NCBI GenBank assembly: GCA_021787595.1
Contig: JAJYLQ010000028.1
Span: 1-42,055 of the forward strand
Length of the DNA stretch: 42,055 nucleotides
Direction: 5' to 3'
Origin: Chloroflexota bacterium
Lineage (GTDB): Bacteria; Chloroflexota; Anaerolineae; Anaerolineales; Villigracilaceae
Shown one piece after another: positions 2,961 to 25,443 of the stretch (the stretch's first letter is position 1; every line of letters begins with the position of its first letter). A program made the translations under genes and the position numbers. Below the pieces are notes generated by a model, which worked only from the letters and a program-made list of their open reading frames with translations, had not been told where the DNA came from and did not search any database.

Positions 2961-4286
2961 ATGTTTGAATCGCTAACCAATCGACTCAATCAAGTCTTTG
3001 ACCAGCTTCGACGACGCGGAAAATTGTCCGAGGCGGATGTTGACGCGGCGATGCGCGAGGTCCGTCTCGCGCTGCTCGAAGCGGATGTCCACTTCAGTGT
3101 CGTCAAAACTTTCATCGCGCGCGTGCGCGAGCGCGCGGTAGGTACGGAAGTATCGAAGGCATTGAATCCGGGTCAGCAGATCATCAAGATCGTCAACGAA
3201 GAATTGATCGCAACTCTCGGTGAACCCGCGCCGTTGAATCTATCGGGGCCAAAGCCGCGCGTAATTATGCTGGTTGGCCTGCAAGGCTCTGGCAAAACAA
3301 CTGCCGCGGGCAAACTCGCGCGCTTGCTTCGCTCGAAAGGCGAACGCGTGATGCTGGCTGCAGGCGACCCGTATCGTCCCGCGGCGGTGACTCAATTGCA
3401 GCAGCTCGGCGAGCGGCTCGATGTGCCCGTTGAAGCGGATTCAAATCTCAAGCCGCCGGAGCTCGCCAAGCGCGCCTTCGACAAAGCTGAGAAGGGCGGA
3501 TTCGGCGTCGTGATTTTGGACACCGCTGGCCGGTCGCAGTTGGACGCGGAATTGATGAACGAGTTGAAATCCATCGTGGCAAAAGTCACGCCCGTGGAAA
3601 CATTGCTCGTCGTCGACTCGATGATCGGACAGGAAGCGTTGAACATCGCGCAAGGTTTTCGCGATAACGTGTCCATCACTGGTTTGATCCTGACGAAGAT
3701 GGATGGAGACTCACGCGGCGGCGCGGCAATCTCGATTCGATCCGTGACTGGCGTGCCGATCAAGTTCATCGGCACGGGCGAAAAACTCGACGCGCTCGAA
3801 ACGTACGATCCGGCGCGGCTGTCGTCGCGCATTTTGGGCATGGGCGACATGCTCGGCTTGATCGAAAAAGCCGAAGCCGCCTTCGATCAACAAACCACGC
3901 AAAAAACCGCCGAGCGTTTGATGAAGGGACAGTTCACGCTCGAAGATTTTTTGGAACAGATGAAGCAGATGAAAAAGATGGGACCGCTTTCGCAGGTGAT
4001 GGACATGTTGCCCGGGCAGTTTGGGCAAGCCGCGCGCCAAGCGGACCCGAAAGAGATCGAGAAAAACTTGAAGCAATCGGAAGCGATCATTTATTCGATG
4101 ACGTTGAAGGAACGCCGCAATCCCGATTTATTGAATGCCTCGCGTCGACGCCGCATCGCGGCTGGATCAGGAACCGATGTGCAGGATGTAAATCGACTCG
4201 TCAAGCAATTCCGCGAAACGCAGAAGTTGATGAAGACGTTGCAGAAAACGGGCGGCAGGGGACTGGGAAATTTGTTTGGTGGGTAG
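2961..4286 (+). CDS. ffh: Signal recognition particle protein Ffh
   Basis: SRP54-family GTPase, 441 residues. It binds SRP RNA and the signal peptides of nascent membrane proteins and docks with FtsY. Domain order: N helical bundle (1-~85); G domain with P-loop GLQGSGKTT (106-114), DTAGRSQLD and the specificity motif TKMDGDSRGG; then a methionine-rich M domain (~300-430) containing QMKQMKKMGPLSQVMDMLPG. The tail ends QKTGGRGLGNLFGG. No strong ribosome site precedes the ATG. In most bacteria rpsP follows directly. Here it is ~11.3 kb away, and the last ~50 bases of this gene recur in four more places downstream. Confidence 0.97.
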   Translation: MFESLTNRLNQVFDQLRRRGKLSEADVDAAMREVRLALLEADVHFSVVKTFIARVRERAVGTEVSKALNPGQQIIKIVNEELIATLGEPAPLNLSGPKPRVIMLVGLQGSGKTTAAGKLARLLRSKGERVMLAAGDPYRPAAVTQLQQLGERLDVPVEADSNLKPPELAKRAFDKAEKGGFGVVILDTAGRSQLDAELMNELKSIVAKVTPVETLLVVDSMIGQEALNIAQGFRDNVSITGLILTKMDGDSRGGAAISIRSVTGVPIKFIGTGEKLDALETYDPARLSSRILGMGDMLGLIEKAEAAFDQQTTQKTAERLMKGQFTLEDFLEQMKQMKKMGPLSQVMDMLPGQFGQAARQADPKEIEKNLKQSEAIIYSMTLKERRNPDLLNASRRRRIAAGSGTDVQDVNRLVKQFRETQKLMKTLQKTGGRGLGNLFGG

Positions 4287-24601: not shown

Positions 24602-24611
24602 GGTAATTATG

Positions 24612-24659
24612 CCCTCACCCCTTGCCCCTCTCCCTGAGGGAGAGGGGATGGGGTGAGGG
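24612..24659. repeat. Long hairpin repeat between tRNA-Leu and dgt
   Basis: Nested arms CCCTCACCCC / GGGGTGAGGG and CCCCTCTCCCT / AGGGAGAGGGG form a near-perfect 48-bp palindrome. It lies just 3' of the tRNA-Leu gene and before dgt on the minus strand, so it could end the tRNA precursor. It belongs to the same family as 15928-15950 and 41974-42046. Confidence 0.75.
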
Positions 24660-24712
24660 AGTGTGGGGCGAGTGGGGGTCGAACCCACATGGTATCGCTA
24701 CCGAAGGATTTT

Positions 24713-25396
24713 CTTGCTACTATGGCTTGCGCCACCCTCATTTGGAGGTTTGTAGTCTGGACTTTCTCTTGACCATGGATGTCCACTTTAGGTCTCGGCC
24801 GTCAAGTCTCTACACCTTCTTCTTGCTTCCCCGATAATTGTCTGTTAATGAATGACAATTAGGACAAAGGAGTTCGATGTTCTGCAAAGAATTGTTGGTC
24901 CTGTCACCATCTTTGTGATGGAGTTCAAGCGGAATTGGTAAACCCAGCCATTTCGTTTTACCGCAATGTTCACACTGGTTTTCCTTTAGACCTTCACATA
25001 AAAGTCTGTTCTTCAATCTCCACGTGTTTTCGAGTTTGCCGTGGACTAAGATTGTATCTAAAGGACGAGTGTTGTAATGGTGGGTCTTATTCCGCAGAAT
25101 GGCCTGCCCAAGGAAATGAGACGTATCCAAATTCAGGAACTGAATTTGTTTCCACACCGTCTCGTAATTTCCTCCGGCAGGGGTCAGACCAACCTTCTCC
25201 AGAACTGTTCGGATAGAGTAGGAAGTTGCCACTGCCTCTACGAGTTGATCGTCTGTGTACTTTCGCTGTTTTGGCATAGGATGTTTCCTTCTATCAGCAA
25301 GAAGCTTGGCTCGGGATTGCCATCGTTTATCGAAGGTTTTCCCGAGTTTGACCGAATTCACACAGGGAGTTTCCTACCCTGGTGCTCAAATTGTTA
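24713..25396 (-). other. Group I self-splicing intron (IC3-like) in tRNA-Leu, with HNH gene
   Basis: 684 nt. Intron landmarks on the minus strand: the exon ends CUU and pairs with an internal GAG (P1, with the U-G pair at the 5' splice site); P3 strand GTCAA with TTGAC; the P4-P5 block ACTCGGGAAAACC with GGCAATCCCGAGCCAAGC; P6 CTTCTTGCT (25296-25304) with AGCAAGAAG (24819-24827); the P7 region GAGACTTGACGG with AAGAGAAAGTCC; P8 GACC with GGTC; a P9 hairpin CCTCCAAATGAGG; and a terminal G (24713). The core strings strongly recall the Anabaena tRNA-Leu intron. Family assignment is by eye. The ORF is inserted in the P6 loop. Confidence 0.9.
24810..25277 (-). CDS. HNH homing endonuclease encoded in the tRNA-Leu intron
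   Basis: 155 residues. The N-terminal ~55 residues look like a DNA-binding module (YTDDQLVEAVATSYSIRTVLEKVGLTP, a helix-turn-helix pattern). The C-terminal HNH domain has Cys102/Cys105 (CEHCGKTKW), LELHHKDGDRTNN with His120-His121 and Asn129, then LLCPNCHSL with Cys138, Cys141 and His142, giving a complete catalytic and zinc set. It is expected to cut intron-less tRNA-Leu genes and so drive intron homing. I chose the ATG at 25277, preceded by GAAGGA; the upstream 28 codons to 25361 are ribozyme core. The final codons (SKKKV, TAG) lie in the P6 strand and the start of the P7 region. Confidence 0.88.
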   Translation of the reverse strand: MPKQRKYTDDQLVEAVATSYSIRTVLEKVGLTPAGGNYETVWKQIQFLNLDTSHFLGQAILRNKTHHYNTRPLDTILVHGKLENTWRLKNRLLCEGLKENQCEHCGKTKWLGLPIPLELHHKDGDRTNNSLQNIELLCPNCHSLTDNYRGSKKKV

Positions 25397-25443
25397 AAGT
25401 CCTTTGCGTCTGCCGATTCCGCCATCGCCCCGGCGTGCGCATT

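Follow-up and report, generated by a model that had tools for sequence, protein, structure and literature searches.

We analyzed a 42,055-nucleotide (nt) stretch of DNA from a Chloroflexota bacterium (NCBI GenBank assembly GCA_021787595.1, contig JAJYLQ010000028.1; this whole stretch is referred to as the window), in which the gene for tRNA-Leu(UAA) is split by a group I intron that carries a gene for an HNH endonuclease (Table 1). The tRNA gene spans positions 25431 to 24664 on the minus strand and is interrupted after U34; ARAGORN, run with introns permitted, gives the call tRNA-Leu(taa)i(36,684); joining the halves yields an 84-nt class II tRNA with anticodon UAA that ARAGORN again calls tRNA-Leu(UAA). 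A first-pass annotation of the window, made from the letters alone, had proposed a Chloroflexota origin, two tRNA halves 684 nt apart, a break between U34 and A35, and a terminal G in the intron; the origin is right, the coordinates of the halves are exact to the base in the intron-permitting run, and the break and terminal G agree with both ARAGORN and an alignment of 24 related introns. The default ARAGORN run did not detect the gene, and Rfam at its gathering score did not detect the intron; we discount both misses because the intron-aware run resolves the gene and a sister intron with a decayed open reading frame (ORF) scores above the Rfam cut-off. A GC-rich inverted repeat, with sub-threshold Rfam matches to microRNAs, lies at 24607 to 24664 between the tRNA 3′ end and the neighboring gene and is perhaps a terminator.

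Table 1. Coordinates of the split tRNA gene, its intron, and the intron-encoded endonuclease gene in the window
Feature	Positions	Strand	Details	Basis
5′ exon of tRNA-Leu(UAA)	25397..25431	-	35 nt; last bases C32-U33-U34 (...GGACUU)	ARAGORN with introns permitted
Group I intron	24713..25396	-	684 nt, of which 216 nt lie outside the reading frame; terminal base G	
3′ exon of tRNA-Leu(UAA)	24664..24712	-	First base A35	ARAGORN with introns permitted
HNH homing endonuclease gene	24810..25277	-	155 amino acids (aa) plus TAG; tRNA sense; in the P6 loop	
AAGGA, Shine-Dalgarno-like	25286..25290	-	ATG 8 nt downstream	Putative role
Internal guide GAG	25385..25387	-	Pairs with exon C32-U33-U34 (P1), U.G at the splice site	
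P3 5′ strand CGGUC	25350..25354	-	Pseudoknot partner 24796-24800	
P4 5′ strand CUCGGG	25341..25346	-	Partner 25310-25315	
P6 5′ strand CUUCUUGC	25297..25304	-		Alignment and placement in the window
P6 3′ strand GCAAGAAG	24819..24826	-	Overlaps the last HNH codons (..S K K K V stop)	
P7 5′ strand GACUU	24804..24808	-	Partner 24760-24764	

Intron class and ribozyme structure

The first-pass annotation had named a group I model search as a check on its reading, and RF00028 matches positions 25406 to 25161 with an E value of 1.5e-7, though at 36.6 bits the match is below the gathering score of 50. Because the same cut-off misses 9 of the 10 tRNA-Leu intron loci tried (6 with an inserted gene and 3 without), we read this sub-threshold score as a limit of the model; in the window intron the inserted gene is the likely cause, and the ORF-decayed intron of a genus-mate (G004) reaches 52 bits. 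The tRNA-Leu intron model R1 matches the window intron in two pieces that flank the ORF, with E values of 2e-35 and 3.8e-29.

We aligned 24 tRNA-Leu introns, with 8 exon bases per side, from Chloroflexota, Planctomycetota, Acidobacteria, Clostridia, cyanobacteria, and what we take to be the order Burkholderiales; G004 supplied one row, on which the group I helices were assigned by hand, and the window intron stood outside the alignment. Across 46 pairs, including the P3-P7 pseudoknot, 92.4% of 1,085 cells are paired; shuffled alignments gave 70.9%, with none of 500 equaling the observed pairing of this group I core (P3 to P8 with the P3/P7 pseudoknot), and slid partners gave at most 45.3%. The percentage is biased toward the reference because the structure was drawn from one row, and the compensatory changes are the stronger evidence: P3 has 98.3% of its cells paired and two-sided changes in 5 of 5 pairs, P7 has 98.3% paired and two-sided changes in 3 of 5, and P8 has 100% paired with covariation, while pairing in P6 drops to 79.2%. 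P1 does not vary: all 24 relatives have the pairs C-G, U-A, and U.G (the last at the splice site), and the window intron has both this U.G pair and the terminal G.

Every named helix strand was located in the window intron, and the core strings that the first-pass annotation had matched to the tRNA-Leu intron pattern fall in P4/P5 and P8/P7, where they are conserved across phyla. The end of the HNH gene (S-K-K-K-V-stop) holds the P6 3′ strand and reaches up to P7, and part of the ribozyme therefore doubles as coding sequence. These comparisons confirm the window element as a group I intron of the tRNA-Leu(UAA) lineage and of the self-splicing type, whose transcript would be expected to splice.

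The host genome (4.08 Mb in 63 contigs, 99.6% complete, 44 tRNA matches) offers no evident substitute for this gene, which is the sole tRNA-Leu(UAA) match and lies there in two halves. A second, uninterrupted tRNA-Leu(UAA), which the first-pass annotation had considered damaging to its reading, was found neither by BLAST with the 84-nt tRNA nor in a listing of the 44 tRNAs, although assembly gaps could hide one. The class II candidates inspected were Leu CAA, UAG, CAG, and GAG, Ser, and Tyr; the four Leu genes are present and uninterrupted. UUA makes up 49 of 7,939 codons and is used by 19 of the 20 nonoverlapping window ORFs of at least 250 aa. Since no other tRNA-Leu(UAA) was found, splicing of this intron should be essential to the cell.

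The intron-encoded HNH protein

The HNH frame (25277 to 24810) is open over its 155 aa and matches the phage family PHROG 10822 across residues 1 to 154 (E value, 5.9e-43), PF01844 at 22.7 bits (cut-off, 21.4), and PF13392 at 24.3 bits, slightly below its cut-off of 24.8; NCBIfam gave no match to the protein. Eight residues (C102, C105, H121, N133, C138, N140, C141, and H142), which include the HNH motif and the zinc-binding Cys pairs, are invariant in 30 aligned family members, the window protein among them, as expected from the earlier description of a full gene with its Cys, His, and Asn residues intact. The protein is encoded within an element of the self-splicing type whose site is occupied in some relatives and empty in others (see below), as in homing endonucleases.

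An AlphaFold model built on 30 rows (mean predicted local distance difference test score, 86.6; predicted template modeling score, 0.53) has three predicted N-terminal helices (residues 9 to 47) and a C-terminal HNH unit. Foldseek found no PDB match to this model at an E value of ≤0.001, sequence searches gave no useful homolog of solved structure, and VIA-align gave weak matches only (best Z, 5.5). In structure, residues 1 to 57 weakly match helix-turn-helix domains and similar DNA-binding folds, and residues from about 80 to 154 weakly match several HNH nucleases; with a best Z of 5.5, the putative helix-turn-helix in residues 1 to 56 draws on the model and on these matches. The predicted layout suits a site-specific nuclease without proving one. 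PADLOC assigned the protein to a "homing endonuclease" model (1.4e-22), with weaker matches to ZorE, which do not imply a role in a defense system, and no match to the HNH protein occurred in 72,556 plasmid records.

Distribution and ancestry of the intron

A pattern scan of genome collections, made without reference to the HNH gene, listed at least 119 stretches, from which 80 loci were examined. At least 48 introns at this site are present among these 80 loci: 45 were named Leu(UAA), L058 was also so named after exon joining, and L081 and L105, called Ser by ARAGORN, have a junction two bases off. Record titles among the matches listed include Planctomycetota, Acidobacteria, Clostridia, Methylibium, Aquariibacter, Chloroflexi, and cyanobacteria, and the intron is also present in phages. 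The tRNA-Leu intron is thus not specially cyanobacterial, being found in five other groups by record title. The first-pass annotation had placed the window intron in the cyanobacterial lineage, which stands insofar as the intron family is the same, but the window copy is closer to copies of one Chloroflexota lineage and of Planctomycetota: its core is 77 to 95% identical to those of its own Chloroflexota lineage and 74.4% to one Planctomycetota copy, compared with 68.1% to that of G039 and 56.5% to one cyanobacterial copy.

In a tree of 204 intron columns, drawn with a midpoint root, the six introns of the window lineage cluster (SH-like approximate likelihood ratio test [SH-aLRT], 71.6; ultrafast bootstrap [UFBoot], 92), as do the window, G004, and L080 within it (93.3/98). 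We considered and rejected a cyanobacterial source for the window intron, as the tree places it with one Chloroflexota lineage and Planctomycetota, with the cyanobacterial introns on a long separate branch and the deep splits unsupported. L279, a viral intron, falls within the Clostridia introns (83.6/96), and the intron of a huge phage, L232, is unplaced, although its HNH protein is nonetheless sister to the window clade.

Under strict filters, matches to model R1 with an E value of ≤0.001 occur in 19 of 400 genomes drawn from the order of the window, probably Anaerolineales, and 20 of 400 drawn from its phylum. In 6 of the 19 (G000, G004, G039, G052, G066, and G101) and 4 of the 20 (G000, G004, G039, and G545) the match lies at tRNA-Leu(UAA), G039 and G545 having been assigned by exon joining; the remaining matches of both draws are in other tRNAs (the ARAGORN Leu call of G041 is a CAU tRNA) or at tRNAs that could not be named. 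These counts are lower bounds because genome searches over 40 genomes had stricter filters. In Chloroflexota the tRNA-Leu intron is rare and patchy.

R1-matching introns occupy other tRNAs in Chloroflexota as well (L161, L163, L172-L176, L180, L185, L187, L189, L193-L196, and L202), with hosts given by ARAGORN, whose anticodons are less reliable for other long-intron tRNAs, as fMet and another CAU tRNA (split after U33), Lys, Arg(CCU), Asn, Thr, and Tyr. Genome G416 has three such matches in different tRNAs, and some of these introns are 600 to 700 nt long and probably carry endonuclease genes. Inspection by eye of loci L013 and L017 shows a zinc-finger/HNH-like frame close to the 5′ end of a tRNA-Asn(GUU) intron and an apparent antisense frame of similar kind in a CAU-tRNA intron; in the same family, sequence that by eye resembles 23S rRNA contains group I matches, some of about 660 nt (L014, L016, L021, L023, and L025).

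Occupied sites, empty sites, and decay of the endonuclease gene

A search of 61 genomes, counting that of the window, matched the joined tRNA in 56. Beside the same flanking gene, the intron is present in G000, G004, and L080 and the tRNA is uninterrupted in the congeners G002 and G005 and also in G024. These occupied and empty orthologous sites within one genus support the mobile intron suggested in the first-pass annotation; its wording that the intron had spread to, or was long resident in, Chloroflexota holds only in part, as the intron is rare in the phylum and the locus is empty in two congeners, so that it is not simply resident. The intron cores of the window and G004 are 95.4% identical compared with 86 to 88% for the flanks, and those of the window and L080 are 93.7% identical compared with 73 to 76% for the flanking matches, the first of which also covers the intron 3′ end. 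This pattern would fit transfer after the hosts split, and constraint could give the same.

The HNH frame is intact in the window, G066 (73% identity), and L096 (74%). In L109 the gene has lost about residues 53 to 110 in frame; in L080 and G004 about 25 C-terminal residues are left (26 in G004), corresponding to the part needed by P6; and in five sister introns (L050, L064, L076, L104, and L107) the gene is absent. The last HNH codons are probably retained during decay because they form P6. In L050, L064, L076, and L107, three of which are titled Litorilinea or Caldilineaceae, a repeat-like insert of CGCAGATTT units occupies the P6 loop instead of the HNH gene. In G024 (L203, 1501-1674), a partial second tRNA copy (positions 17 to 84) lies about 20 nt downstream of the intron-less tRNA-Leu(UAA) and is possibly a repair scar.

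A second bacterial arrangement is present in G039 and G101, where an HNH gene 44 to 48% identical to that of the window lies in the P6 loop on the opposite strand. The introns of these two genomes group with the ORF-less intron of G052 (L087 in the intron tree; 98.5/100 for the three), adjacent to Acidobacteria, and their HNH proteins form a distinct clade (UFBoot, 100; SH-aLRT, 97) beside a free-standing viral gene (98/81). The viral locus L283, also antisense in the P6 region, belongs to the same seven-row HNH clade (98/91). Since both the HNH clade and the intron lineage differ, intron and nuclease met in G039 and G101 separately from their meeting in the window lineage.

Viral relatives and association with tRNA-Leu(UAA)

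A scan of IMG/VR with five intron-encoded HNH proteins recovered 172 relatives, of which 80 were kept. These 80 viral loci fall into four settings: in 38 an intron-less tRNA-Leu(UAA) is no more than 100 nt away, in 20 the tRNA-Leu(UAA) at such a distance carries an intron, in 12 the gene is inside the tRNA-Leu(UAA) intron, and 10 are elsewhere or at tRNAs that could not be called (L245 and L256 among them; L232 to L234 are not part of the 80). After clustering at 90% protein identity, 23 of 46 clusters are beside an intron-less copy, 8 beside an intron-bearing copy, 8 inside the intron, and 7 in other settings, such that for 39 of 46 nonredundant relatives the gene is inside tRNA-Leu(UAA) or no more than 100 nt away from it; about 1.5 would be expected given that Leu(UAA) accounts for 5 of 175 tRNAs away from the HNH gene in these loci. 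The genes occur on either strand and on either side of the tRNA. The 20 loci (8 clusters) with a free endonuclease gene beside an ORF-less intron in its putative target have the arrangement of collaborative homing, which differs from that of the window, where the gene lies within the intron. The association thus extends the earlier reading, in that the HNH family is phage rich and tied to tRNA-Leu(UAA) even where the intron is absent.

Exon joining named the tRNA in 11 of the 12 in-intron viral loci, the twelfth being L283; it did not name that of one further viral locus, L245. In these 11 the HNH gene lies ahead of the intron core, in the P1 loop that separates the 5′ splice site from the guide, a placement read from the sequence in L254, L260, L277, and L279 and derived from the model match elsewhere. 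The best relative of the window HNH protein in a phage record (60% identity) is in a 595-kb uncultured phage (L232), where the gene lies in P6 of a 700-nt tRNA-Leu(UAA) intron in the same sense and with the same P6 coding overlap as in the window; its protein and the bacterial P6-sense clade are sister groups (UFBoot, 99; SH-aLRT, 94). Three viral loci were checked for phage genes: tail or baseplate genes of phages occur in two, and the third, which lacks a structural gene, has matches to phage families. By eye, the introns of L245 and L254 apparently hold two frames, an HNH frame near the 5′ end and a zinc-finger-like frame further 3′, and in L279 a transfer-messenger RNA match and a ROOL RNA lie close to the intron-bearing tRNA-Leu(UAA) (1514-1594, 3079-3698).

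A viral sample drawn blind to the HNH gene, by the intron-core pattern (80 loci listed, 82 R1 matches), gave the same association. Among the listed loci a gene of this HNH family lies within 1.3 kb of 16 of 43 Leu(UAA) introns, 0 of 17 introns in other tRNAs, and 0 of 22 in tRNAs that could not be called; with near-identical introns removed, the contrast is 12 of 33 versus 0 of 36 (Fisher P = 4e-5), or P = 0.004 versus the 17 named tRNAs alone. L385 is counted as Leu(UAA) in the 43/17 split and still as "other" in the Fisher tests, three rows with a two-base anticodon call were confirmed as Leu(UAA), and less than 500 nt is available on one side in 10 Leu and 11 other rows (L385 as other), to be set against the search radius of 1.3 kb. 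Viral R1-matching introns also occur in tRNA-Lys, Arg(UCU), Leu(CAA), Thr, Glu, Gln, and Pro by ARAGORN (L334, L347, L364, L368, L386, L396, L403, L406, and others), with no gene of this HNH family within 1.3 kb.

Close HNH relatives are present in 7 of 400 Chloroflexota genomes; besides G000 and G039, two genomes have a free HNH gene beside an intron-less tRNA-Leu(UAA) (L315 and L318), in L316 the gene adjoins Leu(CAA), and in two others (L317 with L320/L321 in one, L319 in the other) no Leu tRNA is adjacent. Only 1 of 292 cyanobacterial genomes has an HNH relative with an E value of ≤1e-10, and the tRNA-Leu(UAA) 178 nt away from it has no intron. More remote members of the family are found next to Leu(UAG) in L008 (G052), L233 (Gordonia phage GodonK), and L323 (a second copy in the genome of L109) and beside Leu(CAA) in L316, as if specificity had shifted among leucine tRNAs.

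Discussion

In this study, we describe an intact HNH gene within a tRNA-Leu(UAA) intron and a family of relatives whose genes stand alone, adjoin the intron, or lie within it, there in either of two loops and in both orientations. Our preferred interpretation, to which we give a probability of roughly 80% on this comparative evidence, is that a phage-rich homing endonuclease family specific to tRNA-Leu(UAA) has repeatedly entered the tRNA-Leu intron and now mobilizes it. The transcript would fold, the guide GAG would pair with exon CUU, and the intron would excise itself and restore the UAA anticodon loop. The HNH protein, through its helix-turn-helix-like N-terminal part and C-terminal nuclease, would bind and cut an intron-less tRNA-Leu(UAA) near the anticodon, and repair off the intron-bearing copy would install intron and gene in the cut allele. 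Since the HNH gene keeps to one tRNA gene, intron-bearing or intron-less, the simplest candidate for its target is that gene, at or near the anticodon; genome context in this way favors the intron-less tRNA-Leu(UAA) that the first-pass annotation had proposed as the homing target.

Because viral relatives adjoin tRNA-Leu(UAA) with or without an intron, the nuclease was probably aimed at the insertion site before it came to lie inside the intron, passing from collaborative homing to fusion. The architectures suggest at least three entries: P6 sense (the window lineage and the huge phage), P6 antisense (G039, G101, and L283), and the P1 loop (viral loci). Phage tRNA arrays may have been the meeting place of intron and nuclease, and phages with such arrays would be the likely carriers between hosts. 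After fixation the gene would decay by deletion, with its last codons retained.

Several observations weigh against this interpretation. Eighteen of the 51 inner branches of the HNH tree are weak (starred), and the order of states and the direction from phage to bacterium are therefore tentative. The genomes compared are mostly metagenome assemblies, and the high identity of intron relative to flank could reflect constraint and not transfer. Proximity to a tRNA is an indirect pointer to specificity: 7 of 46 clusters fall outside the 100-nt limit around tRNA-Leu(UAA) (one of them at a tRNA that could not be called), HNH relatives also adjoin Leu(UAG), Leu(CAA), Leu(CAG), Phe, or Ile genes, and in 3 of the 5 other HNH-bearing genomes of the 400-genome phylum draw the gene is not at Leu(UAA). 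SegB, a homing endonuclease of T-even phages, adjoins tRNA genes without favoring one isotype in the part of PMC13096335 available (here and below, statements on papers given by PMC number refer to such parts of their text).

An old, vertically inherited, and immobile tRNA-Leu intron, with the HNH protein as a passenger devoid of homing activity, might be suspected from the wide occurrence of the intron across bacterial phyla, the several relatives that retain it without the HNH gene, and the conserved nature of tRNA genes as sites. We consider it unlikely given its patchiness in the phylum (any R1 match in 20 of 400 genomes and 4 at Leu(UAA), under strict filters), the empty orthologous sites within the genus, the intact nuclease gene with its family-invariant residues, and the related genes at the same tRNA where it lacks any intron. 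It is somewhat less probable still that the family favors tRNA arrays in general, with tRNA-Leu(UAA) merely a hitchhiking neighbor. Although 81 of 83 viral and phage loci have a tRNA call (intron-bearing calls counted), SegB lies among many tRNA isotypes (PMC13096335), and some HNH relatives adjoin other tRNAs, such a preference is at odds with the strong isotype bias of the clusters (39 of 46 against 1.5 expected, on either strand and either side), with the appearance of the Leu(UAA) bias in some bacterial genomes too, and with the presence of genes of this family at 16 of 43 Leu(UAA) introns, as opposed to 0 of 39 introns in other or uncalled tRNAs, among the listed loci. Finally, phage DNA or a misjoined contig in a Chloroflexota bin would be conceivable in a 63-contig assembly whose nuclease has phage relatives, but congeners share the gene next to this tRNA whether they have the intron or lack it, and the genus-mate G004 has at that site an intron core 95.4% identical; an assembly or binning artifact is accordingly very improbable.

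More broadly, the homing family and its phage relatives raise the prospect, on which we lean only a little to the positive side, that the tRNA-Leu(UAA) intron is an actively mobile lineage of bacteria and phages, driven by one endonuclease family devoted to the anticodon region of that tRNA and with phage tRNA arrays as reservoir and vehicle. This intron is the classic old intron, long thought stationary and commonly treated as inherited vertically in cyanobacteria and plastids, and its spread has been a standing question for which the window offers an intact candidate engine. Stages of a homing cycle are visible in living lineages (a free nuclease, a nuclease beside the intron, inside it, decayed, and lost, and an empty site), and the origin of composite mobile introns becomes directly testable with a 155-aa protein and an 84-bp target. 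A nuclease directed at such a conserved anticodon loop could find use as a tool as well.

We take the cyanobacterial and plastid tRNA-Leu intron to belong to subgroup IC3. The window intron shares with the cyanobacterial one the same tRNA, the U34|A35 site, the P1 U.G pair, and a P3-P9 core that can be aligned column by column; its core is 56.5% identical to that of one cyanobacterial copy, and it holds an HNH gene, whose family was detected (E value, ≤1e-10) in 1 of 292 cyanobacterial genomes. A tRNA-Leu intron was reportedly described in a gamma-proteobacterium by Vepritskiy in 2002, and Bonocora and Shub are said to have identified I-Ssp6803I in 2001 as the intron-encoded endonuclease of cyanobacterial tRNA-fMet. 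I-Ssp6803I is a PD-(D/E)XK enzyme, and its tRNA is a different one from that of the window.

Published accounts place the tRNA-Leu intron in cyanobacteria and plastids (PMC4033280) and group I introns in fMet and Ile2 tRNAs (PMC8450103). Outside cyanobacteria, a putative group I intron in tRNA-Leu-TAA, as in the window, is described for Beggiatoaceae (Thiomargarita and Orange Guaymas Maribeggiatoa; PMC4853749); we compare it by description, the intron type being unassigned in that text, where the interrupted gene spans about 350 nt and an endonuclease is not mentioned. A full-text literature search, seen as titles and starts of abstracts and covering few subscription papers (and so no proof of novelty), showed among the entries listed no tRNA-Leu intron with an endonuclease gene, no HNH family linked to tRNA-Leu(UAA), and no phage tRNA-Leu introns. 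The parts are thus of known kinds, and their combination and the phage link look new. A 2014 review states that phage introns seen until then were all in protein-coding genes despite the many phage tRNA genes (PMC3984707), a rule that the viral contigs analyzed here contradict; that the Rfam cut-off misses 9 of 10 loci tried may explain why phage tRNA introns were overlooked.

SegB (PMC13096335) is likewise a phage homing endonuclease situated among tRNA genes and cutting within them, but it is a GIY-YIG enzyme, free-standing, and without isotype preference. In the collaborative homing of phages (PMC3984707 and PMC10448857), a free-standing endonuclease adjoins an intron-bearing gene and the intron site is its target, as would apply to the viral loci described here; the cases in those texts concern protein-coding genes, whereas here the gene is that of a tRNA, and the free, adjoining, and intron-encoded states all occur within one endonuclease family.

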